Part shown: one piece after another, positions 4,471-23,714 of the stretch
How positions within the stretch are numbered: position 1 is the first letter of the stretch
How the letters are laid out: every line of letters starts with the position of its first letter
IMG/VR virus record: IMGVR_UViG_3300046736_000149
Coordinates: 1 to 26,294 of that record
Length of the DNA stretch: 26,294 nt
Strand: one strand, 5' to 3'
From: a virus
The notes under the pieces: model-generated
The model's input: only the letters and a program-made list of their open reading frames with translations
Databases searched by the model: none
What the model was told of the DNA's origin: nothing
Position numbers and translations under genes: made by a program

Positions 4471-5592
4471 TTAGGCGGGGGAGAGCGTCTCGCAGTACGC
4501 CTTCACGAACTCTGCCGCGACTTGCGGCACGATTGCATTGCCCGCTCCCCGCAGCAGGCCCACTCTGCCGGATACCCCATGAGCCAGAGGGAAAATCTCG
4601 GGTTGAGCGCGCCGTGCTTTTCCGTCCCGGCAGGGGATGAGGTTGAAGGAGGACCAGAAGCCAGCTGCGCCTGCACCTGAAGGCTGGTTATCGCAGTCCG
4701 GTTCGCATTGCTGCCATCGCGTTCCCCCATCCGCTTCTTCATCGCCAAGTGAGCCTCGACACTCTTGTTGTCGTCGTTCGCCACTGGCGTAGCCCACCCC
4801 GCCAGCGTCGCTGTCCGCCCCAGCAGCGCGTTCACCGGCACGTTCGTGCAACTCTGCTCGTCCCCGTCCTTGTGGTCGCGGGTCGTCGGCGTCGGCCACC
4901 CCACCAGTCCGCCCATCAGCAGTTCGTCCTTCCTCTTCCCGCTGCGGCTCGTCTGCCCGCCCTCCATCGCGTTGGGCGTCGGCCACCCAGCCAGCACCGC
5001 TTGGTCCTCCAGGTTCACCTGATGCCCCGCCTCGATCCGCGTCAGCACCTTCTCCGGGTCGCTGTAGCACCCGCCCCGCTGGTTGTGATCCGGACTGCGC
5101 CACCCAGTACAGCCGCTGCCGGATGTGCGGCGCCCCGACGCTGTGTGCGCCCAGTATAACCGCCCCGCACGCGTAACCTTCCGCCTCCAAATCTGCCGAT
5201 ACTCCATCGAGCCAGTCGAATCCAATCGCCTGCGCAACCTGCTCGCCAAAGACTCGCTGAGGACGCTGCTCGGCGATAAGCCGACGAAGCTCCGGCCAGA
5301 GGTGTCGCACGTCACCCGCGCTCCCTTGCTTGCCGGCGGCACTGAAGGGCTGGCATGGGCAACTGCCTGTCCAAACAGGTCGAGTGTCTGGCCACCCGGC
5401 GAGGCGCAAGGCGTATGACCACCCTCCGATCCCGGCGAAGAAATGGCACTGGGTAAACCCTCGAAGATCGGCTGCTCCCACGTCAACGATGCTTCTCTCA
5501 TCAACCTCTCCCGCGGCGATGAGTCCTCCTTTGATGAGTTCTCGCAGCCAGGCGGCAGCTTGTGGGTCGTTCTCATTGTAGTAGGTGCTCAT
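4471..5592 (-). CDS. dcm: DNA cytosine-C5 methyltransferase
   Basis: The 373-residue protein transfers a methyl group from S-adenosylmethionine to cytosine in DNA. Visible motifs in order: motif I FFAGIGGWS (residues 51-59, cofactor binding), motif IV GSCPCQPFSAAGK (catalytic Cys80), motif VI in the GEQV form (Glu117), motif VIII-like IRQRLYWVA (157-165), and the C-terminal motif GNAIVPQVAAEF. The N-terminus YYNENDPQAAAWLRELI and the segment FGEQVAQAIGFDWLDGVSAD are typical of a phage subfamily. Residues about 170-300, where target recognition lies, are low-complexity and rich in Ala, Asp, Gly and Arg. No cognate restriction enzyme is nearby, so it is an orphan enzyme, probably protecting phage DNA from host restriction. 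The middle and end overlap a second long frame (separate entry). It is divergent from the PEP-CTERM gene. Confidence 0.93.
   Translation of the reverse strand: MSTYYNENDPQAAAWLRELIKGGLIAAGEVDERSIVDVGAADLRGFTQCHFFAGIGGWSYALRLAGWPDTRPVWTGSCPCQPFSAAGKQGSAGDVRHLWPELRRLIAEQRPQRVFGEQVAQAIGFDWLDGVSADLEAEGYACGAVILGAHSVGAPHIRQRLYWVAQSGSQPAGRVLQRPGEGADADRGGASGEPGGPSGAGWVADAQRDGGRADEPQREEEGRTADGRTGGVADADDPRPQGRGRAELHERAGERAAGADSDAGGVGYASGERRQQECRGSLGDEEADGGTRWQQCEPDCDNQPSGAGAAGFWSSFNLIPCRDGKARRAQPEIFPLAHGVSGRVGLLRGAGNAIVPQVAAEFVKAYCETLSPA
4503..5576 (-). CDS. Overlapping ORF nested in the methyltransferase gene (W-P-T-P repeat type)
   Basis: On the same strand as dcm, shifted by one base, 357 codons stay open from an ATG at 5576. 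The product contains DLFGQ near residue 66, repeated W-P/A-T-P units (AGWPTPNAMEGG, VGWPTPTTRDHKDG, AGWATPVANDDNKS) and an end with LNPRFSLWLMGYPAEWA and SCRKSRQ. From memory, proteins with WPTP repeats and LNPxFxxWLMGYPxxW ends occur in many phage annotations. The frame relation is systematic: VADA in dcm is read as WPTP here, and GNAIVPQ of motif X is read as MQSCRKS. So it may be a truly overprinted gene, or an open shadow frame of a GC-rich gene. The sequence alone does not decide. Confidence 0.35.
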   Translation of the reverse strand: MRTTHKLPPGCENSSKEDSSPRERLMREASLTWEQPIFEGLPSAISSPGSEGGHTPCASPGGQTLDLFGQAVAHASPSVPPASKGARVTCDTSGRSFVGLSPSSVLSESLASRLRRRLDSTGSMEYRQIWRRKVTRAGRLYWAHTASGRRTSGSGCTGWRSPDHNQRGGCYSDPEKVLTRIEAGHQVNLEDQAVLAGWPTPNAMEGGQTSRSGKRKDELLMGGLVGWPTPTTRDHKDGDEQSCTNVPVNALLGRTATLAGWATPVANDDNKSVEAHLAMKKRMGERDGSNANRTAITSLQVQAQLASGPPSTSSPAGTEKHGALNPRFSLWLMGYPAEWACCGERAMQSCRKSRQSS

Positions 5593-5681
5593 GGAATGTA
5601 ACGAAACTCGACGCTTTGTCGGAAAATCTTACATAACTTGTTCTGGACAAGCAGGCTCTGCCCAGGTTACAGAGTTATCTC
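5593..5681. promoter_or_regulatory. Divergent promoter region between dcm and the PEP-CTERM gene
   Basis: The two genes leave this 89-base gap in opposite directions, so promoters for both must lie here or in the adjoining coding ends. It is AT-richer than its surroundings. TTGT-containing hexamers occur on both strands (for example in CTTGTTCTGGACAAG, itself a partial dyad), but I could not find well-spaced -35/-10 pairs and give none. Confidence 0.45.
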
Positions 5682-6290
5682 ATGAAATTCAACCTTCTTC
5701 TCCTATCCGCCTTTGCACTCGCCTCCGCGAGCGTTAGCGAGCGGGCCTCGGCCGTCACCATCACCAACCCGCTCACCCTCCAGACCCAGTTCGTCGCGGG
5801 GACTTTGACTGGCCAACCCGGTAACTCAAACATCGCAACTGAAACTCTGATCGCCCAGCATATCCTCAACCTTGCCCTGGGGCAGGTTGATGGCGCCTAC
5901 GCGGCGAACACAGTCTTCAACTACTCCGGGACCATCACCGCCAACGGCGGCCAGCACCCGGACACCATCCTCAACGACGGCATCGTCAGCATCCCGGCGG
6001 GGTGGGGCGGCGCTCTGGCAAAGTATGACGGCGACAATGGCGGATACGTCTTATTTCTCTTTGGCGGTCAAGCCTCTACGATTCCCGAGTATCCTTGGAA
6101 CTTCTGGACCACCAACCAAAGTCAGTATCGCATCAGCCACTACACTTTGTTCAACGGTCAGGGCGACGTGACCCCCAACCCAACCAGCGTGCCCGAGGGC
6201 GGCGTCGGTGTCGCGCTGCTGGGGCTTGCCCTTGCCGGCCTGGCGGGCGCACGCAGGCTAATTCACGGACGCGCCGCTCTGCGAGCGTAG
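5682..6290 (+). CDS. Secreted PEP-CTERM/VPDSG-CTERM sorting-domain protein
   Basis: The 202-residue protein has a signal peptide (MKFNLLLLSAFALASASV..., cleavage probably after the ASA near residue 24) and a C-terminal sorting signal: SVPEGG, a hydrophobic helix (VGVALLGLALAGLAG) and basic ARR. This tripartite tail is recognised by exosortase systems that process and place proteins in the envelope or matrix; the VPEGG form is typical of Verrucomicrobiota. The middle domain (IPAGWGGALAKYDGDNGGYV, LFGGQASTIPEYPWNFW, QYRISHYTLFN) fits, from memory, other PEP-CTERM proteins. Such proteins are host functions, unusual in a phage. Repeat copies lie in the signal-peptide codons and across the stop codon, and a terminator follows, so it looks like a cargo gene (moron). 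Confidence 0.85.
   Translation: MKFNLLLLSAFALASASVSERASAVTITNPLTLQTQFVAGTLTGQPGNSNIATETLIAQHILNLALGQVDGAYAANTVFNYSGTITANGGQHPDTILNDGIVSIPAGWGGALAKYDGDNGGYVLFLFGGQASTIPEYPWNFWTTNQSQYRISHYTLFNGQGDVTPNPTSVPEGGVGVALLGLALAGLAGARRLIHGRAALRA
5727..5743 (+). repeat. Dispersed GCGAGC-type repeat, copy 3
   Basis: GCGAGCGTTAGCGAGCG lies inside the PEP-CTERM gene, where it encodes the SVSERA part at the end of the signal peptide. The core is identical to copy 1. It may have been inserted in frame, because the hydrophobic core of the signal peptide is complete before it. Confidence 0.6.
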
Positions 6291-6295
6291 CGAGC
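6282..6295 (+). repeat. Dispersed GCGAGC-type repeat, copy 4
   Basis: CGAGCGTAGCGAGC spans the TAG stop codon of the PEP-CTERM gene; the last residues LRA are encoded by its beginning. Together with copy 3 it brackets most of this gene. Confidence 0.6.
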
Positions 6296-6307
6296 AGCTT
6301 GCTGGTC

Positions 6308-6508
6308 TCATTGGCCGGAGGGGGGACGCTCTCTCCGGCCTTTTTGCGTCTGGGCTAAGGCAGTCAGTGCGAGTCCTGCTTCTGTAGTGATCGGGTGGGC
6401 CCCGCTCTCCCGGTGCGCCAGAGTCGAGCGCGCTATCCCCAGCCGGCTCGCCACCTCCTTCTGCCTCCCAAGCTGTAGTCGCAATGCCTTGTAGGTCGCT
6501 GCGTCCAT
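6308..6508 (-). CDS. Small helix-turn-helix DNA-binding protein
   Basis: The 66-residue basic protein is almost only a helix-turn-helix: YKALRLQLGRQKEVASRLG, then IARSTLAHRESGAHPI, then TTEAGLALTALA. This matches the XRE-like pattern found in many very small phage proteins (helix 2 QKEVASRLG, recognition helix ARSTLAHRE). The start is supported by a good Shine-Dalgarno sequence on the minus strand (GGGAG at 6518-6514, five bases from ATG), a rarity in this genome. It reads away from the terminase gene and toward the PEP-CTERM gene, and its last codons overlap the terminator of the latter. It may control the promoter of the rightward late block next to it; this is inferred from position. Confidence 0.8.
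   Translation of the reverse strand: MDAATYKALRLQLGRQKEVASRLGIARSTLAHRESGAHPITTEAGLALTALAQTQKGRRERPPSGQ
6313..6345 (+). terminator. Intrinsic terminator after the PEP-CTERM gene
   Basis: GGCCGGAG (6313-6320) pairs with CTCCGGCC (6333-6340) in an 8-bp GC-rich stem that can extend by G-U/G-C pairs, followed directly by five T. This is a classical Rho-independent terminator, separating the PEP-CTERM gene from the late operon. Confidence 0.9.
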
Positions 6509-6569: not shown

Positions 6570-6757
6570 CTCGCGAGCAGTGCCGACTCGCTCACTGGTA
6601 GTGATAAAATTGCGTCCCGCGCTGGTGCCGGTTCCGCTTCTCGGTTTGCGCCCAGGTGACAAGCCAGCCGGCCCCTCTCCGAGGGGCTTTAGACGGGAGG
6701 ATGCCAAGAAGTTTCCGGCTACTGAGCCTGAGTGCCAACCGGCCAAGGATTGACTTT

Positions 6758-7357
6758 ATGGACACCAACGGCGGATCCCTTGAAGAACTGTTCCAGGCTT
6801 CCGCTCGTGGCGAGCCGACAGACGCGCCCACGGTCGAGCGCGAAGCGCGATACGAGGGAGAGGCACAAATGCTCCCGGTTCGAGACTTCCATGGGGTGAA
6901 GCCACCGAACCGCAAGATTGCCAAGGAGCGTTCGCAGCACCGTCTGGCTGCCTACATGTTCGCGATGGGAGTCTCTCAGACTGAGATCGCAAGGCGCCTC
7001 GACGTCGAGATCGCGACGGTTTCTCAGTGGTGGCGCCAGCCCTTCATGCAGGAGTTCGTCAAGGAAGAGATGGCCAATACCGGGCGTGACACTCTCAGCA
7101 AGGTCATTGCGGGCGCTGCTGTCGATTCCGTCTTCACTCTTATCACGCTCCGTGATGAAAAGACAACGCCCGCGTCTGTGAAGCGTGCCTGCTGCTCAGA
7201 GTTGCTGGACCGCGCCATGGGCAAGGCTCCTCAGACCGTCCACAACGTCGGCTACCAGGGCGGTGACGTGGCGGATATCGCCCGCGTAGATGAAGATTTG
7301 CGCAACATGCTTGACGATAAGGCACTTATGCAAAGCCTCCAGCCTTCAATGTCATGA
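6758..7357 (+). CDS. terS: Terminase small subunit
   Basis: The small terminase subunit binds phage DNA at the packaging site and hands it to the large subunit. I start at ATG 6758 (MDTNGGSLEELF), preceded by AAGGA at a fitting distance, rather than at 6656, whose extra N-terminal part is basic and non-conserved in look; this gives 199 residues. A helix-turn-helix lies near residues 67-97: AAYMFAMGVSQTEIARRLDV then EIATVSQWWRQPFMQEFV, typical of small terminases (a short helix pair, then W-x-x-x-P-F/x-F). A helical oligomerisation region follows (TLITLRDEKTTPASVKRACC). The large subunit is about 9 kb downstream instead of adjacent, an unusual separation. The next gene overlaps by ATGA. Confidence 0.8.
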   Translation: MDTNGGSLEELFQASARGEPTDAPTVEREARYEGEAQMLPVRDFHGVKPPNRKIAKERSQHRLAAYMFAMGVSQTEIARRLDVEIATVSQWWRQPFMQEFVKEEMANTGRDTLSKVIAGAAVDSVFTLITLRDEKTTPASVKRACCSELLDRAMGKAPQTVHNVGYQGGDVADIARVDEDLRNMLDDKALMQSLQPSMS

Positions 7358-12852: not shown

Positions 12853-13022
12853 GCGCGAATCCCTTGGAAATCCTCAAGAATGATGAGACTTCTGTCCTGC
12901 GACAGATCGCCCAGCTCGAAGGCGCATTGCTCTATATCCGTCAGTTCCGCGCCACCCTCACCAAGGACGAGGAAAAGAAGCCCACTGCCGGAGAACCTGC
13001 TGATCCTGATGGCAACGGATGA
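12849..13022 (+). CDS. Short protein (57 residues) overlapping both neighbours
   Basis: The start ATG overlaps the previous stop (ATGA). The product MSANPLEILKNDETSVLRQI... continues as one amphipathic helix (AQLEGALLYIRQFRATLTKD) with an acidic, Pro-rich tail. It ends 14 bases inside the next gene. The tight overlaps support expression. A single long helix suggests an assembly or tail-associated small protein; the function is unknown. Confidence 0.55.
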   Translation: MSANPLEILKNDETSVLRQIAQLEGALLYIRQFRATLTKDEEKKPTAGEPADPDGNG

Positions 13023-14715
13023 CTCACCAACCTTGACGGGCGCCACCAACTGCCTGTTCAACCAGCGTTCGTTGACGGCGCCCTACTACCGCGAAGCGGT
13101 GGGCATCCAGGGTGACGAGAACGTCGGCAAGGCAATCGGCTTCGATGCCAATGGCGTCCTGGGGGCCATCATCGCCGGGGATGGCTCTTCGATCAACCTG
13201 CTCGCCCGTGGCGTGGTCAACGATGACACTGGCGACCAGGGCATTGCGATCAACGCCGTTATCGCCGCAGCGCCCCTCGGCTCCACTATCCTCTTTCCGC
13301 CGGGCAACTACAAGGTCCTCACCCCGATCAATACACTCGCCAAGCGTCTCCACTTCCGAGGCGCCGGTGCCCACTGCACACGCATTAACTTCCGCCCAGC
13401 CGCGCCGTCGTTCCTGTTCACCATCCCTGCCAACTCCGATAACGTCTACTTCTCTGATATCTCGCTCGTCGGCTCAGGCAACCCAGGCACCAACATCCGC
13501 ATGGGGGCGATCAAGCAACTCAGCGACGCCCCGACCAACTCCGCCCTCACCGAATGCTTCATCACTCGCTGCAACTTTGAGCAGTTCACCGACGACGTCC
13601 TCTTCTTCAATGCTCTTGAATACGCCAGGATCTCTGAATGTCGGTTCCTCTCCAATGCCGACATCACCTCCCTCGGTGGCTCGGGCACAGGCACTGCCAC
13701 CTGCGTCCGAGCTGATGCCCACGCCAATGCCATCCACCTCTACAAGTCACGGTTCTCTCAAAACGATCGCCTGATCCTCGCCCCCAGTGTCACGCTCTTT
13801 GACATCTCCAACAACTCGTTCGAACTCGATGGGTCACTGACCCGTGGCGGATGGTCCGCCGACTATTTCATCGATGTCGGCTCTGACTCCGTTCAATCCC
13901 GGGGCGTCACTTTCCGCAACAACTATGTCGAGGGTGAGAAGACGATCGCCACCCGGGCGTTCATGCGCCTGCGCAACGCTCTCGCCCCAATGGTCATCGG
14001 CAACACCATCACCGGCTGGAACAGTGGCGCGTCTCAAACCCACTGCTTCATCGAATTCGGCAATGGCACGCTCTGCGCTCGCGTCTCGTGCAATTGGTTC
14101 GAGGAGGTCCTGTCCTCCTTTATGTCCGTCACCGGTTCCGGTGGCAAGGTCCGCGCCTGGGACAACATCTTTGTCGATGGCGGCACCCTGTTGGCGACGA
14201 AGTCGTCCATCAATGCCCTCCTTGCCCCGTCCTCGGGCGCCTTCGAACTCGATGGCGACTTCATCAACCGAGGCGTCACCGTCGATGTCGGCGCCAATGG
14301 CGAAGGCTTCAATGCCTTTGGCTCCGGTAACGTCAACGCCACTGTCCAGTCGCTCTCCACGGGAGGCTCCCGCTCAGCTGTCCTCGACCTCAAGGTCGCC
14401 AATTCAGGCGGCGGTGACGCGGCAGGTTCCGTGCGCTTCAACTCCGGCATGTCAACCGGCGGCGGCATTACCGCCCTGATCGAGGGACTGACCAATGTCT
14501 CGGGTAACGGTGGGCAGCTTCGCCTCTCCACCATGAAAAGTGATGGCGTCATGACTGCCCGCCAAACCATCGACAGCAATGGCGATGCCATCTTCTCAGG
14601 TGCCGTCGAGCTCACCACGGCGGGAGGTGGCCTTGTCCTCAAAACCCCAGACGGCACAAAACGCTACCGCATCACCGTCAATAACTCGGGGGTGGTCACC
14701 TCCACCCTGATATGA
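13009..14715 (+). CDS. Tailspike 1, right-handed beta-helix (pectate-lyase-like) receptor-binding protein
   Basis: I start at ATG 13009 (MATDDSPT), because upstream codons to 12880 overlap the 57-residue gene and look non-coding; this gives 568 residues. Residues 11-50 form an attachment module (GATN...QR...PYYR...IQGD...GKAIGFDANG) shared with the next protein. Residues about 70-430 show the parallel beta-helix pattern: ILFPPGNYKV, an RGAGAHCTRI turn, and repeated N/C/G rungs (CFITRCNFEQF, ISECRFLSNAD, VTFRNNYVEG, VIGNTITGW). Such tailspikes bind and often cut surface polysaccharide. The end TPDGTKRYRITVNNSGVVTS is a common fibre terminus. Catalytic residues cannot be assigned from one sequence. 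It overlaps tailspike 2 by ATGA. Confidence 0.82.
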   Translation: MATDDSPTLTGATNCLFNQRSLTAPYYREAVGIQGDENVGKAIGFDANGVLGAIIAGDGSSINLLARGVVNDDTGDQGIAINAVIAAAPLGSTILFPPGNYKVLTPINTLAKRLHFRGAGAHCTRINFRPAAPSFLFTIPANSDNVYFSDISLVGSGNPGTNIRMGAIKQLSDAPTNSALTECFITRCNFEQFTDDVLFFNALEYARISECRFLSNADITSLGGSGTGTATCVRADAHANAIHLYKSRFSQNDRLILAPSVTLFDISNNSFELDGSLTRGGWSADYFIDVGSDSVQSRGVTFRNNYVEGEKTIATRAFMRLRNALAPMVIGNTITGWNSGASQTHCFIEFGNGTLCARVSCNWFEEVLSSFMSVTGSGGKVRAWDNIFVDGGTLLATKSSINALLAPSSGAFELDGDFINRGVTVDVGANGEGFNAFGSGNVNATVQSLSTGGSRSAVLDLKVANSGGGDAAGSVRFNSGMSTGGGITALIEGLTNVSGNGGQLRLSTMKSDGVMTARQTIDSNGDAIFSGAVELTTAGGGLVLKTPDGTKRYRITVNNSGVVTSTLI

Positions 14716-16226
14716 TCGAGAACGACACACCCTCAGCCGAAGGCGCCACCAATGTGGCGTTGCACCAGCGTGACTCCGCGCCCCCGTATCAGCGCCTCGT
14801 GGTCAATATCCAGGGCGATGCCAATCCCGGCAAGGCGATCGGGTTCGACGCGGAAGGCAGGTTGGCGACGCTCGAAGTCGACGAGAACCCGTTTGCCGTA
14901 GTGCGCACTGAGGCCCAGTTCGACGCCGCCCTAGCGGCTGGCAGGAGCATTGTATTGGATGGCACTGTTGCCCTGACCACCCCCAAGTCCATCGACACCC
15001 GCTGGACCACCATCAAAGGACCGGGATGCCTGAGCTTTACCCTCGATCAGGCTCTGCCAGCTTGGCAACTCCGCGCGCTCACCATCAATGCCGATGACGT
15101 CACACTGAGCAATTTTGAGTTGGTCTCGACTGAGCCAGTTGCCTCCAATCTCTGCTACGGCATCGCCTTCACCGAAGGACTGCAAAATGTCGGTCACCGC
15201 ACCAAGCTCATCGATCTCCTCATTCACAACTGGAAGCGGTGCGTCTCCAAAGATGGCAACACCAGTGCGTTTACTTCGCCCCATGAAGGCGTCCTGATTG
15301 AGCGGCTCTTTGCCCACACCGCACGCGAGTACGTCTGCTGCCTGAACTTCGGCTTCACCCGCCTGATCATGCGCGATAGCAGGCTTCTGGGCTGGCTCGA
15401 TGGAGCAACGCACGTCACCACCGACAACGCCATGTACGGTGGCTCCAACTGGAACGACTGCTCGTTCGATAATTGCCACTTCGGCAATGTCGGCAGAATG
15501 GGCTTCGAGGCTACGCCAGCGTCAATGGTCGACTACATCCACGAGCGCACACGGCTCCACTGGTGTCGGGCTGAGAACTGCGGCTCGATGGGGTTCAGTC
15601 TGGGCTTTGTCGACTCGGGCATCTTCGAAAAGTGCCTCGCCAAGAACGTCAAGCAGTGCGGCTTCGAAGTGGCGGGCTCCGCGCCAGGCGATCCACAGAA
15701 CCCACCAGGGCATCCCGGGCTCTATGCGAAAGCGATCATCGAGTCCTGCGAGGTCGATGGCGTCTCCCACAACAACCCCTGCTACGGCATCAGCATCGAC
15801 GGTGCAGCTGATACGCTCGTCCGGGGGGCGACCAAAATCTCCAACATCACCACTACCCTGACCGATGGCGCCTGTGGCGTAGGCCTTACCTCCTCCATCC
15901 GCTCCTCGGTTAAGCTCGTCGATTTCACCGACTGTGGTCACCTCTTCATCTACTGCACCAAGGGGTTCCTGGCCAATACGACGGGCGGGCACGTCTTCGA
16001 GAACAATACTTTCCGCAACCCGGGGGGGACGGGGAGCACGCACAGAAGTGTGTACGTTGACCAGCAAAGTGCTTCGGTACGGCAAAATACAACGTATCAG
16101 AAAGCGGGGACAACGCTAGGGTATCAGTGCATTACATCTGTTCCAGCTCAAGTTTTCGTAGACGGGGTGGCAGTGGCTTATGGTGATCAGACGTTTGGAG
16201 GCTCAAATATTCAATTGCCGGGATGA
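14712..16226 (+). CDS. Tailspike 2, Cys-rich right-handed beta-helix protein
   Basis: The 504-residue protein shares residues 11-50 with tailspike 1 without a gap, by my hand count 24 of 40 identical. The rest differs: a beta-helix pattern with rungs such as TINADDVTLSNFELVS, LIDLLIHNWKRCVSKDG, CSFDNCHFGNVG, CRAENCGSMGFSLGF, IESCEVDGVSHNNPCYGISI and FENNTFRNPGG. Cysteines are frequent and often on the same rung position, which can stack inside the helix. So a common base plugs two different receptor-binding bodies into the virion. The last 200 bases are AT-richer than the rest and may come from another source. It overlaps the large terminase gene by ATGA. Confidence 0.8.
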   Translation: MIENDTPSAEGATNVALHQRDSAPPYQRLVVNIQGDANPGKAIGFDAEGRLATLEVDENPFAVVRTEAQFDAALAAGRSIVLDGTVALTTPKSIDTRWTTIKGPGCLSFTLDQALPAWQLRALTINADDVTLSNFELVSTEPVASNLCYGIAFTEGLQNVGHRTKLIDLLIHNWKRCVSKDGNTSAFTSPHEGVLIERLFAHTAREYVCCLNFGFTRLIMRDSRLLGWLDGATHVTTDNAMYGGSNWNDCSFDNCHFGNVGRMGFEATPASMVDYIHERTRLHWCRAENCGSMGFSLGFVDSGIFEKCLAKNVKQCGFEVAGSAPGDPQNPPGHPGLYAKAIIESCEVDGVSHNNPCYGISIDGAADTLVRGATKISNITTTLTDGACGVGLTSSIRSSVKLVDFTDCGHLFIYCTKGFLANTTGGHVFENNTFRNPGGTGSTHRSVYVDQQSASVRQNTTYQKAGTTLGYQCITSVPAQVFVDGVAVAYGDQTFGGSNIQLPG

Positions 16227-17782
16227 GCGTCGCTCTGCCAACTGCCGAATCGCTCAAGGACTTCTCCGATGTCGAGAAGCTCCGCATGCGGGCATTGCTC
16301 AAAGAACGCAAGGAGCAGCAGCGCAAGAATGGGATCGCCTTCTACCGCCCCCACCCGAAGCAGCAGCTCTTCCATGGGTGCGGGTTCCGCTACAGGTTGG
16401 CACGAGTGGGCAACCGCTTCGGCAAGAGCCTGATGGGAAGCGCTGAAGATGTCGCATGGCTGCTGGGGGAGCGCCCGTGGATCCCAGTGGGACTAGCTGA
16501 AAGAACCGTTGGTATCCCCCAGCGGCCTGTCAAAGGCGTGCTGATCTGCTCAGACTGGGACAAGAGCACTGAGATCTTCACCAATCAGCACGGCGATGCG
16601 GCGGCACGCGGTAAACTCTTCCAACTTCTCCCTGAAGCCAAAATCGAGAACGTCACCAAAAACCACTCGGGCAATACCTGCAAAATCTCAGTAAAGGGAA
16701 AGTACGGGGTCTCGATCCTCTACATCGAAACCGTCGCCTCCTACAAGGCGAACACGATGTCCGTCGAGTCCAGTGACTGGGACTTCATCCATGTCGATGA
16801 ACCGCTCCCTGAGGGCATGTGGAAGGCAATGGCTCGCGGTCTGGTGGACCGGGGCGGAAGTGCCTGGTTCGTCTGCACCATGCTGAACGAACCGTGGATC
16901 AATGATTTCTTCCTCCCGAGCATGCGCGAGGAGCTGGACGGCGACATCCCATTCGAGTCAGGCCAAAAGTGGGTCCTGACTGGGTCCATGTACGACAACC
17001 CGTTCCTCGATCCATCCAACATCAAGGAGTATGAAGGTTCGCTCACCGAGGACGAGATCCAATGCCGCGTCTACGGCATCCCGATGAGCATGAGCGGGAC
17101 GATCTACCGCGAGTTCAACATGAACCGGCACGTCTTCCACCATGCCCCACACGGCTGGAAAGGGAAGAATGACCCACCTTTTGAGTATTCGATTCGCTAT
17201 GCCATCGACCCACACCCGCGCACGCCAACGGCAGTCCTTTTTGCTGCTACTGCTCCTTCTGGCGAGGTCTTCTTCTACGACGAACTCTTCCTGGGCGGGA
17301 CCATCGATGAAATCTCTGTCCAAATTAAGCTGAAACTTCACAACCGAAACGTCATCTGGGGAATCTGCGACCCGCTCGCCTTCATCGAAAGCCCAATCGA
17401 CGGCAGGAGCATGGCAGATGTCTTCATCGAGCACGGGCTCAACATCGAGAAAGCACCAAAGGACCCGAGCAACGGCATCCTCCAAGTCAAGGAGGCACTC
17501 AAGACCAAGGATTTCCTGTTCTTCTCCTCTGACTGCCGCAGGACTTTGTGGGAGTTCGATCACTACATCTGGGACGAGAAGAACCCGGACAAGCCGCGCC
17601 CAAAGGACAACCACGCCATGGAGTGCCTCTACCGCATGGTGCTGACGGGACTGGAGTACATCGAGCCGGAGGAGAACGACGGCAGAATCATTCCATACTC
17701 CACGCTCGCCACCTCCCGGTTCGTCCTTCCCGAAGGTCCACGCAAGCCCAAGCCCTGGGACCCGTCAGTCCGCTACCGCTAA
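16223..17782 (+). CDS. terL: Terminase large subunit
   Basis: The 519-residue protein pumps DNA into the prohead and cuts it. The ATPase part has a variant Walker A RVGNRFGKS (residues 61-69, Lys68) and Walker B WDFIHVDEP (Asp192-Glu193). The nuclease part has candidate metal-binding acids: Asp329 in IRYAIDPH, Asp383 in WGICDPLAF and Asp462 in KDNHAMECLYRM, at the typical strand ends. Length is ordinary for the family. Its N-terminus overlaps tailspike 2 and the portal gene follows after three bases, the usual terL-portal order. The small subunit lies far upstream. Packaging type (cos or headful) cannot be told from this alone. Confidence 0.92.
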   Translation: MSVALPTAESLKDFSDVEKLRMRALLKERKEQQRKNGIAFYRPHPKQQLFHGCGFRYRLARVGNRFGKSLMGSAEDVAWLLGERPWIPVGLAERTVGIPQRPVKGVLICSDWDKSTEIFTNQHGDAAARGKLFQLLPEAKIENVTKNHSGNTCKISVKGKYGVSILYIETVASYKANTMSVESSDWDFIHVDEPLPEGMWKAMARGLVDRGGSAWFVCTMLNEPWINDFFLPSMREELDGDIPFESGQKWVLTGSMYDNPFLDPSNIKEYEGSLTEDEIQCRVYGIPMSMSGTIYREFNMNRHVFHHAPHGWKGKNDPPFEYSIRYAIDPHPRTPTAVLFAATAPSGEVFFYDELFLGGTIDEISVQIKLKLHNRNVIWGICDPLAFIESPIDGRSMADVFIEHGLNIEKAPKDPSNGILQVKEALKTKDFLFFSSDCRRTLWEFDHYIWDEKNPDKPRPKDNHAMECLYRMVLTGLEYIEPEENDGRIIPYSTLATSRFVLPEGPRKPKPWDPSVRYR

Positions 17783-17785
17783 CCC

Positions 17786-19648
17786 ATGGACAAGCGCTAC
17801 ATCGATGAGTTGGACGAGGAAACGCCTACGCGTTTCCACGCTGACCTGCTGGAGAAGTGCCTTGACCTCGTTAAGCAGTCGAGGAGCCGGATGGCGGATC
17901 GCTACTCCAGTTGGGACCGCCAGCATGAGGTCTACCTGAGCCGTATGCCGCTCGACAAGGGGGATCGCCAGAACATCGAGCAGGGGGTCCCGCCAAAGTT
18001 CATTGTCCCGCTCACGTTCGCCCAGGTCCAGACGTTCGTGAGCTTCTGCTTTTTGTTGTTTGGCCAGAACAAGCGCTTTTTCGAGCTTGAGCCCACTGGC
18101 GAGGAGGATTCGCTCACCAACGACGCTATCGAACTCATCATCAATGGCGACCTGGAGCTGAACAAGTGGTCGCTTTTGCTCTACCAGTTCCTCACCGATG
18201 TCACCAAGTTCGGAGTTGGCGTCTTCAAGACCAGCTGGCGGGTCGAGAAGACTGATGTGCCGGTGGAGGCACCGGAAAGGATCAACGAGGAAGTGACGGC
18301 ACTCCAGACGCAGGAGGAGACGGTGACGGCATTCGAGGGCAATCGTATTTACAATGTAAGTCCCTACCAGTTCTTCCCAGACCACAGGCTACCCACCCGG
18401 GACTTCCAGCGGGGCGAGTACTGCGCCTCATCGGAGGAGTACACCGAGTCCGAACTCAAGGGGTTGGAGCAGGACGACATCATCACGGGACTGAAATATG
18501 TCGAGAAACTTAACTTCCGGAGTGACTTTGCCATCGACCGGATGCGGTTCGCCGCCATCGACCCCAAGAACCCTCAGGATGGCCTGTTCTCGATTATGCA
18601 GGTCCAGATCAAGCTGGTCCCGAACGACTGGAAGCTTGCGGGGGGTCGTGGAAAGCTGGGAGACTCCAAGCGACCCAAGACATATCTCGTCTGGATCGCC
18701 AATGACCACCGGATCGTCCGCTTTGAACCACTCAACGTTTACCATGGAGAATTCACCTACGCCGCCCACGAACTCCTCCCAGACATTCACGAGAAGCTCA
18801 ACCTTGGACTCGCCGAGCTCATTGACGTATTACAAAGTGTCGTTGGTTGGTTTATCAATTCTCGTATCCAGTCCGTTTCGAGAACCATCGACAACTGGCT
18901 GGTGGCAGACCCTTCCGGAATTGACCTCGCCACCATTGAGAACAGATCTCGGGTCATCCTCCTGAAGAAGGCAGCGGCACGGCTGGGAGTCGAGCGGTTC
19001 GTCAAGCAGCTGACCGTCCAGGACAACACCACCGGGCACATCAACGATGCCCAGATGCTCATGCAGCTGCTCCAGACGGTCACAGGCGTCAACGAGAACG
19101 CCATGGGGCAGTACAACAGTGGTCGGCGGTCTGCTACGGAGGCCAGGGCGGTAATTTCGGGCGCCAGTGCACGCATGCGCATGCTCGCTGAGTTGATCTG
19201 GGTCGGCGGCATCGCCCCCGTGGGACGGCAGCTAATGATCAATGCCCGCCAGTCGATGTCCTCCGAGACATACGCCAAGCGAGTGGGGATTGGGAAAGTC
19301 GACCAGTATCCGATGTTCCACCAAGCGCCCAAGGACCTCGTGAGCAATGTCGACCACTTCATCATGAACGGGACGTTGCCGAGCGAGAAGTCGTTCATGG
19401 CCCAGTCGCTCCAGGAACTGCTCGGGATCGTCCTCCAGAGCCCAGAGGCTGCCCAGATGTTCAACCTCGACCCCAACAAGCTGATGAAGGAAATCTATGA
19501 ACTACGTGGAATCCCCGGACTCGGACGATTCGGATTTAGCCCGGAGGACCAGGCAAGGCTCGCTCAGGCATCAGCGGCAACAACTCCAGGAGCTGAGGGA
19601 GTCCCCAGCGACGAAGGCAATGTTGTCAGACTTGCGCCGCCAGCGTGA
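17786..19648 (+). CDS. Portal protein
   Basis: The 620-residue protein forms the dodecameric ring at one head vertex through which DNA passes. Support: position directly after terL, typical length, an N-terminal helical region (FHADLLEKCLDLVKQSRSRM), the wing/stem-like segments PPKFIVPLTFAQVQTFVSFC and LLYQFLTDVTKFGVGVFKT, a SPYQFFPDHRLPTRDF segment (portal proteins often show P-x-x-F-x-x-D-P), and a C-terminal helical region with QLLQTVTGVNENAMGQYNSG followed by RRSATEARAV, typical of portal proteins of podovirus type. The end overlaps the next small gene by 29 bases. Confidence 0.85.
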   Translation: MDKRYIDELDEETPTRFHADLLEKCLDLVKQSRSRMADRYSSWDRQHEVYLSRMPLDKGDRQNIEQGVPPKFIVPLTFAQVQTFVSFCFLLFGQNKRFFELEPTGEEDSLTNDAIELIINGDLELNKWSLLLYQFLTDVTKFGVGVFKTSWRVEKTDVPVEAPERINEEVTALQTQEETVTAFEGNRIYNVSPYQFFPDHRLPTRDFQRGEYCASSEEYTESELKGLEQDDIITGLKYVEKLNFRSDFAIDRMRFAAIDPKNPQDGLFSIMQVQIKLVPNDWKLAGGRGKLGDSKRPKTYLVWIANDHRIVRFEPLNVYHGEFTYAAHELLPDIHEKLNLGLAELIDVLQSVVGWFINSRIQSVSRTIDNWLVADPSGIDLATIENRSRVILLKKAAARLGVERFVKQLTVQDNTTGHINDAQMLMQLLQTVTGVNENAMGQYNSGRRSATEARAVISGASARMRMLAELIWVGGIAPVGRQLMINARQSMSSETYAKRVGIGKVDQYPMFHQAPKDLVSNVDHFIMNGTLPSEKSFMAQSLQELLGIVLQSPEAAQMFNLDPNKLMKEIYELRGIPGLGRFGFSPEDQARLAQASAATTPGAEGVPSDEGNVVRLAPPA

Positions 19649-19826
19649 ACTGACTGAACAACTCATCTTTGAAAGTGAAATCGACTTCAAAACCCTGCTT
19701 AGCCGCGAACAGCTCATCGGCCAAAGGAACGGACTGGCCACTGCTGAGAGCTGGTTCGATGGTCGCATGATTGAAATTGACTCGGAAATCGCCAAACTCG
19801 AAAAGTCCCATGTCCCAGATTCCTAA
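19620..19826 (+). CDS. Small coiled-coil protein between portal and scaffold genes
   Basis: I choose the ATG at 19620 (MLSDLRRQRE), which overlaps the portal end by 29 bases, rather than 19497, which would overlap it by 152. The 68-residue product is a pair of charged helices (SDLRRQRELTEQLIFESEID; ESWFDGRMIEIDSEIAKLEK). The same layout, portal then a tiny helical gene then scaffold, is seen in other phages, and it may help head assembly. Function is unknown. Confidence 0.65.
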   Translation: MLSDLRRQRELTEQLIFESEIDFKTLLSREQLIGQRNGLATAESWFDGRMIEIDSEIAKLEKSHVPDS

Positions 19827-20442
19827 TAACAACATACAGTTAACTGAGGAAGAAATTTCACGTCGCCTCAAGAGGTTCGTTGTGAGTGATGAGCAGATTC
19901 AGTCGCTCCTCGATGCCAATACCCCTGTGGGGCATCGGAAGCAGATCCTCCAGCAAATGCTGGACGGGGCTGCCAATCACGCGATTACCGCCTCCAATGC
20001 CCTCCTTGAGCACAGGTTCGGTGAGCACCAGAAGGTCTTCGCCGACACCGACCGGATCGCGAGGGAAATGTACCGCGACCGGATGTTCGACAAGTTCTTC
20101 GGCAAGTACGGCACCTTGAAGGATTACCGCAAGCTCGTGGAAGATTCGGTCTCTGCCCTCTCCACCCGCGAAGATCTCCCCACCGACGATGAGAAACTTT
20201 TCGAGCTGATCGCCAAGGAATCCGAGGCGCGCGTTCGACCACTCAAGCCTGACTTCGTCTTAGTCCCAGACGCCAGCCAGACACCCACACCAACACACGG
20301 CGAGCGTGAGCGCGCCACCACACCATCCCATACCCCTGCGTCCACTGACGCTGGCGGCTACCAAGGAGGCACTGCCGGGGGCGGCAGCCGCTCCTCAGTG
20401 CCCGCCGGCAAAGCTGAACCCGGCCTCTGGGACGACAACTAA
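19810..20442 (+). CDS. Scaffold-like head assembly protein
   Basis: I use ATG 19810 (MSQIPNNNIQLTEEEISRRL), which overlaps the previous gene by 17 bases; the product has 210 residues. The N-terminal two thirds are helical and highly charged (FVVSDEQIQSLLDANTPVGH; NALLEHRFGEHQKVFADTDR; MFDKFFGKYGTLKDYRKLVE), and the last 60 residues are low-complexity, Thr/Pro/Gly/Ser-rich, ending EPGLWDDN. Helical protein with a disordered tail directly before the major capsid gene is the pattern of scaffolding proteins, which guide capsid assembly and leave the head. No protease domain is visible. The assignment rests mainly on position and composition. Confidence 0.6.
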   Translation: MSQIPNNNIQLTEEEISRRLKRFVVSDEQIQSLLDANTPVGHRKQILQQMLDGAANHAITASNALLEHRFGEHQKVFADTDRIAREMYRDRMFDKFFGKYGTLKDYRKLVEDSVSALSTREDLPTDDEKLFELIAKESEARVRPLKPDFVLVPDASQTPTPTHGERERATTPSHTPASTDAGGYQGGTAGGGSRSSVPAGKAEPGLWDDN

Positions 20443-20477
20443 ACAACAAACTCCGCCCCTGACCGGGCACTACGACA

Positions 20478-21890
20478 ATGGCAATCCTGGGACTAACCAA
20501 CACGAACAACCTGAGTGCCTTCATGGCCCTCACCAACCGCCGGAGGGTCTTCTACACCTACCCGAATGGCGCCGCACCGCTCGTCGGCTTGCTCTCCATC
20601 ATGGAGGATGAGGTGACTGATGCCCCCACCTTCGGCTGGTGGGAGCAGCGGTTCTTGGAGAGAGGCACCACGCTCAACGCGACTCTCCAGTTCTACACCG
20701 CCTCCGGACCCACGGACATCGCCTCTAGCACAACCGCAGGCGCTGCCGTGACTTGGGCCGTTGGAACTGGCAACTACATCCAGACCCGTACGGTGACGGA
20801 CGGGGCACGCTACCTGCGTCCCGGTGACGTGGTCACCTACTTCAACATGAAGATGACGGCAGGCTTTGCGGATTTGAAGCTGCTCATCACTGCTGTCGAT
20901 TACGTGAACATGGACCGGTTTACCGGAAGAATCCTGGTCACTGCCGCCTCGACCATCCTCAACAATGCCACTGCCGGCGACAACGTCGGGAAATCGGTTC
21001 GCGTGACAGGGAGCGCGCATGAGGAAGGGGGTGTTTCGTACACCAGTCTCTCCCGCTATCCGACCAACCCGGTGAATTATACCCAAATTTTCCGGACTCC
21101 GTTCTCGTTCACCCGGACCGCTCTCAAGGAGCCTCTCCAGTGGGACAAAACCGGTGCCTACAAGCACGTCGCCAAGGACAAGGGGCTCGACCATATGGTC
21201 CAAATCGAGAATGCCTTCTTGTTTGGCACCCGGACCTCGTTTCTTGCCGCCAATGCCGATGGCGAGTCGGTCCACACCCGGACGACTGGCGGTGTTGAGT
21301 GGTTCCTGCAGCAGTGGGAACTGGGCAACATTACCAATACCGGGGCATTCGACTACCGCCCAGGCGGTGCTGTCGCTACCCTCAACTCTGACGCCAACAA
21401 GCGCATCATCGATGCCAGCGGCACCAGCAACACGATCACCCGCACCGAGCTCGAAGGCTACCTCCAGCGGGTCTTCGCCGTCTCCAACAACAAGACCAAC
21501 GAGAAGCTGGTCCTCGGGGGTGCCGGATTCATTGGCGCCATCAACGTCACCTACGAGCGCCTGATCCAGACGACCCGCTCTCTCGGCAAGAAGGACGACG
21601 AGACCTACGGCATGAACCTCACCGGGCTCCAGACCGTCCACGGGATGATCTGGATGAAATCCCACCCGCTGTTCAGCGCCCGCACTGACATGAACTACAA
21701 CGCCCTGATCTTGGACGTTGGGAACCTCAAGTACCGCTACCTGACCGATAGCGATACCATCCTGCTCAAGAATCGCCAGAACCCGGGCGAAGACCGCCGC
21801 CGCGACGAATGGCTCACCGAGTGCGGACTGGAAGCCCGGTTCCCCGAAAGCCACATGTACTTCAAGAGCGTGCAAATCATCTCCGGTTAG
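20478..21890 (+). CDS. Major capsid protein (HK97 fold, SU10/DUF5309-like)
   Basis: The 470-residue protein lies after the scaffold-like gene and before the adaptor, the standard place for the capsid subunit. The phrase NYTQIFRTPFSFTRTALKEP near residue 196, DHMVQIENAFLFGTRTSF, and a late strand-rich part (VLGGAGFIGAINVTYERLIQ; LKYRYLTDSDTILLKNRQNP) resemble, from memory, the SU10/DUF5309 type of HK97-fold capsid proteins. The central YLRPGDVVTYFNMKM suggests an inserted beta domain. The leader ACAACTAAACAACAAACTCC contains no Shine-Dalgarno motif though this should be the most strongly translated gene, so another initiation mode is likely. A 470-residue antisense frame over the gene is a composition artefact. 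Confidence 0.82.
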   Translation: MAILGLTNTNNLSAFMALTNRRRVFYTYPNGAAPLVGLLSIMEDEVTDAPTFGWWEQRFLERGTTLNATLQFYTASGPTDIASSTTAGAAVTWAVGTGNYIQTRTVTDGARYLRPGDVVTYFNMKMTAGFADLKLLITAVDYVNMDRFTGRILVTAASTILNNATAGDNVGKSVRVTGSAHEEGGVSYTSLSRYPTNPVNYTQIFRTPFSFTRTALKEPLQWDKTGAYKHVAKDKGLDHMVQIENAFLFGTRTSFLAANADGESVHTRTTGGVEWFLQQWELGNITNTGAFDYRPGGAVATLNSDANKRIIDASGTSNTITRTELEGYLQRVFAVSNNKTNEKLVLGGAGFIGAINVTYERLIQTTRSLGKKDDETYGMNLTGLQTVHGMIWMKSHPLFSARTDMNYNALILDVGNLKYRYLTDSDTILLKNRQNPGEDRRRDEWLTECGLEARFPESHMYFKSVQIISG

Positions 21891-22176: not shown

Positions 22177-22938
22177 ATGACCGTCGGTGAATTAGCGCAG
22201 CAAGTTCGTGATTTTTTGCACGTCGGAGCGAGCCACGATGCCGCAGATTTGGTGATCATAAACCGCCTGATTCTGCAAGCACTCAACAATGCTCGTATCT
22301 GGGCGGAGCGAGAGAACGATTTTGCCCTTGCGCTGGTTCACGGCACCGTGGTGGCCTCACCAGCTGTCGGCGCCAACCTGGAGCAGGTTCTGGTGGGGGG
22401 CGAGATCGTCTCCATCAAGAGTCTGCTCAATGTTTTTTACGAACCGACGGCTGGCTCGGGGGAGCTGTTCCCCTTGCGCCGGAGACCCCGCTCCTCCTAC
22501 GTCGGCTCCCTGCGCCGTACGAACCTCCTGGAGGAGTCCGCAGGCCCATGGGGGTCATATGGCCACCAGCTCGCCCGGACGGCTCCTGAGGTCACCAGCG
22601 GCCCAACGGCGGGCATCTGTGCCGAGGTCCTGACCTTCGGCAACAGTCTGTTCATCGAGCCATCCGCCAATGCCGACGTCACCCTCACTGTCGACGGCTA
22701 CCGCTGGATGCCAGTTTACCAATTCGATTCTGATTCAGATTTCTTCTGCCGCTACTGTTCGGACTTTCTGCTCTGGAAGGCGGTCATCGAAGTCAACCAC
22801 CGGCTGGAGATATTCGCCCAGAGGCAAGAGGGCACGTTGCCGCCTCCCACCACCATGCGTGACGAAGCCTGGGAGTCTGCGCTGAAGTGGGACGGGTTCC
22901 TCCACGAGGCGGGACGCGAGTACACACTTCTGACCTGA
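22177..22938 (+). CDS. Head-tail adaptor-like protein
   Basis: The 253-residue protein starts with a helical region (ELAQQVRDFLHVGASHDAAD; LVIINRLILQALNNARIWAE), typical of adaptors that dock under the portal. A beta domain follows, and the C-terminal helical part reads FFCRYCSDFLLWKAVIEVNH, then EAWESALKWDGFLHEAG. Position after the capsid gene and this helix-beta-helix layout fit SU10-type adaptors. A purine-rich GGGAGGG lies about 13 bases before ATG. The gene ends by one-base overlap with the next (TGATG). Confidence 0.6.
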   Translation: MTVGELAQQVRDFLHVGASHDAADLVIINRLILQALNNARIWAERENDFALALVHGTVVASPAVGANLEQVLVGGEIVSIKSLLNVFYEPTAGSGELFPLRRRPRSSYVGSLRRTNLLEESAGPWGSYGHQLARTAPEVTSGPTAGICAEVLTFGNSLFIEPSANADVTLTVDGYRWMPVYQFDSDSDFFCRYCSDFLLWKAVIEVNHRLEIFAQRQEGTLPPPTTMRDEAWESALKWDGFLHEAGREYTLLT

Positions 22939-23714
22939 TGCCTAAGCACGTTGTCTGCTTCTCTGGGGGAATTGGCTCGTGGGCTGCCGCCAAACGAGTT
23001 GCCGCCTGCCATGGAACTGACAACCTCACCTTGCTCTTTTGCGATACCAAGATGGAGGACGAGGACCTCTACAGGTTCCTGCATGAAGCTCACGCCAGCA
23101 TCGGTGGACAGCTTGTGACGCTCTGCGACGGGCGGACACCATGGCAGGTATACGAGAAGGAACGGTACATTGGAGATTCCAGAATTGATCCGTGCTCGAA
23201 AATTCTGAAGCGAAAGCTGCTGGACAAGTGGAGGAACGAAAACTGTGATCCCGAAACTTCAACCTTCTACGTTGGAATCGATTGGACAGAGAAGCACCGG
23301 CTTGACCGGCTCCAGAAGTTGGTTGCCCCGTGGCGCTACGAGGCACCGCTCCTCGCCCCGCCATATACGACAAAGTGGATGCTGTTGGCAGAACTGAAGG
23401 AGGATGGGATCGAACCACCACGGCTCTACAAGATGGGGTTTGCCCACAACAACTGTGGCGGATTCTGCTGCAAGGCGGGGCACTCGCACTTTCGGCACTT
23501 GCTCGCCACGATGCCGGATCGCTACCGCTACCATGAGGAACAAGAGGCGCGACTGCGCGGTCTCGGCATCAACGGAGCAATTCTCAAGACTCAGGTTGGT
23601 GGTATCAGACGAAAGATTACCCTGAGAGAATTTCGCGAGGCAATCGAGTCCGATACCCAAGGCAATCTCTTTGAAGAAGACGACCTTGCCGCCGGGTGCG
23701 GGTGTGCCCTGTAA
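22938..23714 (+). CDS. PP-loop (PAPS-reductase-like) enzyme with Cys clusters
   Basis: I start at ATG 22938 (MPKHVVCFSGG), giving 258 residues, because the upstream codons overlap the adaptor gene. Residues 5-14 (VVCFSGGIGS) form the PP-motif S-G-G-x-x-S of adenine nucleotide alpha hydrolases, which activate substrates with ATP or bind PAPS. Further family-like parts: LLFCDTKMEDEDLYRF, the DPCSKILKRKLL segment (Cys86), GIDWTEKHRLDR and an HNNCGGFCCKAGHSHF segment (Cys173, 177, 178). The end is CGCAL (Cys254, 256). The clusters could bind an iron-sulphur centre or do sulphur transfer. From memory this is a phage-borne family without known function; it may modify DNA or RNA or scavenge sulphur. 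Its place among capsid genes is odd. Confidence 0.75.
   Translation: MPKHVVCFSGGIGSWAAAKRVAACHGTDNLTLLFCDTKMEDEDLYRFLHEAHASIGGQLVTLCDGRTPWQVYEKERYIGDSRIDPCSKILKRKLLDKWRNENCDPETSTFYVGIDWTEKHRLDRLQKLVAPWRYEAPLLAPPYTTKWMLLAELKEDGIEPPRLYKMGFAHNNCGGFCCKAGHSHFRHLLATMPDRYRYHEEQEARLRGLGINGAILKTQVGGIRRKITLREFREAIESDTQGNLFEEDDLAAGCGCAL

Follow-up and report, generated by a model that had tools for sequence, protein, structure and literature searches.

Exosortase substrates are regarded as bacterial surface proteins, and their purpose is largely unknown. PEP-CTERM/exosortase substrates (TIGR02595, PF07589; PMC1569441) have a signal peptide, lack an internal membrane segment, end in a motif followed by a helix and a basic cluster, and are single-gene units whose core belongs to no recognisable family. 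The VPEGG-tailed protein described here shares these properties; by contrast, it carries VPEGG instead of VPEP, has no PF07589 match, and is carried by a phage. It also follows the V-P-acid-x-G plan of the VPDSG-CTERM variant (TIGR03778, PF18205), but its tail scores under both cut-offs and has a glycine in fourth place. Phages, which the founding PEP-CTERM paper does not mention (PMC1569441), are known to encode surface proteins of another kind. Ltp of phage TP-J34 is the precedent for a phage-encoded surface exclusion protein (PMC3952083), and lipoproteins of the Ltp type, by which temperate streptococcal phages exclude superinfection, resemble our protein in its predicted place at the host surface and in being encoded by an extra gene of a phage. 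Unlike the window protein, which has no Cys and a predicted exosortase route, they use a lipoprotein anchor in Gram-positives. Phage morons and other accessory loci (PMC7067206) are similarly single genes between phage modules, with their own terminator and variable among relatives; expression in the lysogen is a further moron trait. Phage morons have been described before, as have PEP-CTERM proteins of cells, and their joining is new as far as the searched open-access literature goes: we found no report linking PEP-CTERM/exosortase substrates to phage cargo in that literature, subscription papers and most preprints being outside its scope.

The window, i.e. the whole stretch of DNA analyzed, is an entire IMG/VR record, which is 26,294 bases long and is listed as a linear fragment. 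Its leftward gene block ends at 5592 and its rightward block starts at 6656, with the VPEGG gene (5682-6290) between both (Table 1). Profile searches of the rightward block identified a terminase large subunit, an SU10-type portal and an SU10-type capsid, and these genes prove the phage nature of the window. The position between two phage blocks, the divergent gap and the strong terminator, all three claimed in an earlier sequence-only reading of this DNA, were borne out by the block limits, the 89-bp spacing and the 12-bp stem. No consensus promoter for the VPEGG gene was found on the plus strand of the window. An element within the gap is partly common to the upstream region of a homologous gene (L002, below); the similarity is weak, since 1.8% of shuffles score as high in local alignment.

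Table 1. Features of the window (positions counted from its first base)
Feature	Position	Strand	Evidence or remark
DNA cytosine methyltransferase, divergent neighbour	4471..5592	-	PF00145 4e-16, phrog_363 8e-75; no match in G052
Divergent gap, 89 bp, methyltransferase start to VPEGG gene	5593..5681	.	contains TGTCGGAAAATCTTACA (5617-5633)
VPEGG-tailed surface-protein gene, 202 aa	5682..6290	+	ORF; homologues in 3 other phage contigs
Signal peptide, residues 1-24, predicted cleavage ASA/VT	5682..5753	+	by eye; sequence, hydropathy peak
Repeat copy GAGCGTTAGCGAGC	5729..5742	+	inside signal-peptide codons
Exported core domain (predicted), residues 25-169, Cys-free	5754..6188	+	mostly beta by low-confidence model
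Sorting tail (predicted): VPEGG, hydrophobic helix, basic end, residues 170-202	6189..6287	+	sub-threshold profile matches; kept in 4/4 homologues
Repeat copy GAGCGTAGCGAGC	6283..6295	+	overlaps last codons, supplies TAG stop
Small HTH_3 regulator, convergent with VPEGG gene, overlaps terminator	6308..6508	-	PF01381 5e-6, above cut-off; no match in G052
Intrinsic terminator	6313..6345	+	12-bp GC-rich stem then TTTTT, about -24 kcal/mol
Terminase-small-like HTH protein, opens rightward block	6656..7357	+	phrog_2538 2e-4; 78% identity in G052
Terminase large subunit, SU10-type portal, SU10-type capsid	16223..21890	+	74%, 85%, 93% identity to G052

Some further features of the window were noted. 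A long open reading frame (4503-5576) overlaps the methyltransferase gene in another frame. The region 12880-16226 encodes two long proteins, probably tail spikes whose target is surface polysaccharide; a pectate-lyase-like domain (PF12708) occurs in the first of them. Within the structural block, a PAPS-reductase-like protein (22887-23714; phrog_424, E 3.5e-42) that is absent from the related phage G052 is a probable further cargo gene, and an open reading frame at the contig end (25512-26294) contains a run of about 20 serines.

The VPEGG protein starts with a signal peptide of the layout MKF, hydrophobic run, ASA|VT, and ends in the tail SVPEGGVGVALLGLALAGLAGARRLIHGRAALRA. Its hydropathy peaks lie at the two ends only, and the residues after the tail helix carry a net charge of +4. 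Signal peptide and tail are kept in all four homologues (the window protein included), none of which contains Cys or, by hydropathy, a membrane segment in between; after the motif each shows a hydropathy peak of 2.0–2.1 and a net charge of +2 to +4, and the AxA box is also present in L168 and L170. The open reading frame, its hydropathy and this conservation therefore confirm the complete signal peptide and VPEGG-type tail that had been proposed. Third-position GC of the gene (0.75) is similar to that of the structural genes. A structure model built from four sequences reached a pLDDT of 56.6 (a two-sequence model, at pLDDT 31, was useless) and gave no confident fold match in PDB or BFVD; among solved structures designed proteins alone matched, via the low-complexity tail.

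Next, we considered whether the tail belongs to the exosortase-type signals. The best-matching Pfam tail model was PF18205 VPDSG-CTERM (18.0 bits, E 0.0026, cut-off 25); TIGR03778 gave 16.6 bits against a cut-off of 22, and the L002 tail reached 21.2 bits against the VPDSG-CTERM cut-off of 25. Profile searches with PF07589 matched neither the window nor G001. The near-invariant Pro-Glu-Pro of PEP-CTERM is replaced by V-P-E-G-G in 4/4 homologues, in which the rest of the PEP-CTERM layout was found, namely an N-terminal signal peptide and, after the motif, a transmembrane helix and a basic C-terminus. Within this layout VPEGG is invariant across the four proteins while adjacent residues vary. 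Moreover, the last 32 positions of the four-sequence model (A2) picked up L031, an unrelated viral protein, by its VPDGG tail, and that tail passes the Pfam VPDSG-CTERM cut-off. For the predicted sorting tail, the profile evidence is suggestive and the comparative evidence stronger. The profile matches anticipated earlier are thus real for PF18205 and TIGR03778 but lie below both curated cut-offs, and a strict PEP-CTERM or VPDSG-CTERM label has to be given up, as the PEP triplet is absent as well. Given the sub-threshold scores and the conserved VPEGG plan, we classify the tail as a variant, with VPEGG, of the exosortase-type plan and not as a member of a curated family. No exosortase gene was found on the 23 phage contigs examined, hence the host would have to supply the enzyme.

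Three further homologues, L002 (found by a scan of viral sequences), L168/G051 and L170/G052 (both found by a two-motif scan), are 57–72% identical and full-length, and all have phage genes and VPEGG tails. Two of the three belong to a phage group other than that of the window. The L002 protein is 72% identical to the window protein (alignment A1), with the core the best conserved part (80%); its contig encodes an integrase, DnaB, terminase, head-tail connector and capsid, and apart from the VPEGG gene and a tail-fibre piece no sequence in common with the window phage could be detected. L168 is from the same group as the L002 phage (terminase 97%, portal 98%), and its VPEGG gene occupies the same position, 5' of the terminase genes. 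By contrast, G052, which is grouped with the window phage by its capsid (93%), portal (85%) and terminase (74%), has the gene at another site, with counterparts of window ORFs 193-456 and 1214-1747 on either side. Since the methyltransferase and the small HTH gene are unmatched in G052, the site of the window copy is a variable spot. A hairpin with a T run lies 3' of the VPEGG gene in three of the four copies (window, L002 and L170); none was found downstream of the L168 copy. Model A2 found no match to the family in G003, and no homologue was found in isolate phages or plasmids. Two scans of genome contigs yielded no chromosomal homologue, a weak negative because they used strict exact patterns, the second of them over-specified. 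Neither the window nor G052 yielded an integrase match. The integrase of the L002 phage has a homologue in G051, which suggests that the L002 and G051 phages are temperate. Separately, we noted that L002 and L168 are mosaic in a stretch that starts with the DnaB-like helicase and ends at the small terminase (28% helicase identity) and are otherwise about 90% identical in DNA across the head genes; the helicase-to-small-terminase stretch is a recombination hotspot.

We then asked how the gene has moved. Despite near-identical terminases and portals, the L002 and L168 VPEGG proteins are only 57% identical, and their synonymous divergence (dS) is 1.43 for the VPEGG gene against 0.41 for terminase and 0.24 for portal; the allele has therefore been replaced and is not merely fast-evolving. 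Between the window and L002, dN/dS is 0.21, i.e. purifying selection, so the protein is functional. The gene tree places the window protein together with the protein of L002, an unrelated phage (bootstrap 94%/91%), and the topology expected from the phage backbone has an AU p of 0.056 (protein) and 0.027 (DNA). Discordance between gene tree and backbone is thus supported, though not overwhelmingly. The gene is an extra one between phage modules, is placed elsewhere in the relative G052, and mostly has its own terminator. Collectively, comparison of the four contigs showed a moron-like cassette, swapped among unrelated phages and found at differing sites in related ones. On four phage contigs in two unrelated groups, with differing sites or swapped alleles, the earlier proposal of phage cargo is supported, and so, as a prediction, is that of a surface protein reliant on sorting by the host.

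The sequence-only reading had further described the gene as bracketed by two copies of a dispersed repeat. The repeat, GAGCG-N1/2-AGCGAG (also seen as GCGAGCG-TA-like-GCGAGC), occurs five times in the window, at 2718, 3589, 5729, 6283 and 8534, all on the plus strand, where 0.09 copies are expected and 200 first-order Markov resamples of the window's dinucleotide content gave at most one. Both copies named as brackets lie inside the gene ends, the homologues have no repeat at the gene, and the repeat is absent from L002 and G051, while the two copies in G052 are elsewhere. A role as a mobility end is ruled out; the repeat is possibly a regulator site or a host-type repeat.

The same reading had held such proteins to be cellular, not viral, and had suggested a search of viral genomes for VPDSG/PEP-CTERM domains, which we ran on IMG/VR. 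In-frame VP(D/E)(G/S)G tails were found, besides L002, in one more family on three contigs (L027, L028 and L031), whose gene has a terminase large gene on one side and, on the other, a large ORF for a putative portal-like protein. An off-frame control scan gave 17 matches and no real tail. Classic VPEP tails were present at no fewer than 120 loci (L042-L161). Among the 120 loci listed, 113 have the motif in a frame that stays open for over 90 codons and stops 15–45 residues after the motif; 96, judged by a simple rule, begin like a signal peptide as well. All 45 VPEP records tested exceeded the PF07589 cut-off, as did none of 14 control genomes; because the records were chosen by motif, this result confirms the tails and is not an estimate of prevalence. 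Clustering was performed on cores only; iterative profiles of whole proteins drifted via the shared tails. Among the listed loci, the cores formed families of 19, 15, 6 and 4 members and many singletons. The largest, with an FGQTSG-like core, includes L066, where the PEP-CTERM gene has the terminase gene before it and the portal gene after it; terminase genes also lie near L071, L091 and L105. As IMG/VR records may include host flanks, proof comes only from loci with adjacent phage genes. More than 100 IMG/VR loci carry true PEP-CTERM C-termini, some of them beside terminase or portal genes, and as a generalisation the cellular claim is wrong.

What might the protein do? We give about even chances to the reading that it is moron-like cargo of a tailed phage, an exported protein with an exosortase-type VPEGG tail that at the cell surface most likely blocks competing phages. 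The signal peptide would take it across the inner membrane, and a host exosortase would then cut at VPEGG, releasing the core or attaching it to the outer surface or to exopolysaccharide. There the core might block adsorption or DNA entry of competitors (superinfection exclusion or receptor masking), and alleles would be swapped because exclusion is competitor-specific. We guess at phage competition because phages maintain the gene and swap its alleles, and because Ltp-type phage surface proteins act in this way (PMC3952083). Allele swapping can, however, also reflect a recombination hotspot and not exclusion-driven selection. The pectate-lyase-like tail protein suggests that the window phage probably handles surface polysaccharide, and hints that its own adsorption involves it.

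Alternatively, the gene might serve lysogenic conversion for the benefit of the host, changing exopolysaccharide matrix, flocculation or attachment and leaving other phages directly unaffected. Cellular PEP-CTERM proteins have been tied to exopolysaccharide (PMC1569441) and to floc formation (PMC9850573), and both the purifying selection and the temperate relatives are consistent with such a role; we nevertheless consider it unlikely, since rapid allele exchange between phages fits phage competition better and no integrase was detected in the window phage. A role in the productive phase, as a late product, made beside the packaging genes, that coats or releases the cell surface to spare progeny from loss on debris or siblings, or as a virion decoration, would explain why the gene directly precedes the small and large terminase genes in the window, L002 and L168, and why other phages have a PEP-CTERM gene flanked by terminase and portal (L066). 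Its own terminator and the G052 copy, among early genes of opposite orientation, speak against this role, as do, for a virion protein, the export signal and membrane tail, and we think it quite improbable.

That the tail is a mere C-terminal membrane anchor and no exosortase signal would fit its scores below the curated cut-offs, and L168 and L170 have no Pfam match of any kind and no match to an NCBIfam tail model; the invariance of V-P-E-G-G amid varying flanks and the passing score of the L031 tail, aligned by the same model, make this distinctly improbable. More doubtful still is an exosortase decoy, in which an abundant substrate saturates host sorting and strips the host of its surface proteins. 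The decoy would likewise use the host pathway, consistent with the missing exosortase on the phage contigs examined, yet a tail alone would suffice, and it is the core that is best conserved between the window and L002. Lastly, an assembly join of host and phage DNA, named earlier as the outcome that would undo the proposal, has nothing in its favour beyond the cellular look of the gene, and is refuted in practice by four independent contigs in two phage groups, by synteny and by purifying selection: the whole window contig carries terminase, portal and capsid, and the homologues also lie on phage contigs.

With superinfection exclusion as the preferred reading, viruses may use a host sorting system to re-dress the infected cell. 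It is conceivable, though we rate it somewhat short of even, that phages of exosortase-bearing bacteria commonly carry exchangeable, diverse sorting-tailed cargo that re-dresses the cell and excludes competitors via the host exosortase. Exchangeable phage cargo offers a concrete hypothesis for part of the exosortase-substrate class. If true, the exosortase route would join the lipoprotein and outer-membrane routes of phage-made change to the host surface, in environmental and Verrucomicrobia-like bacteria, about whose interplay with phages least is known.
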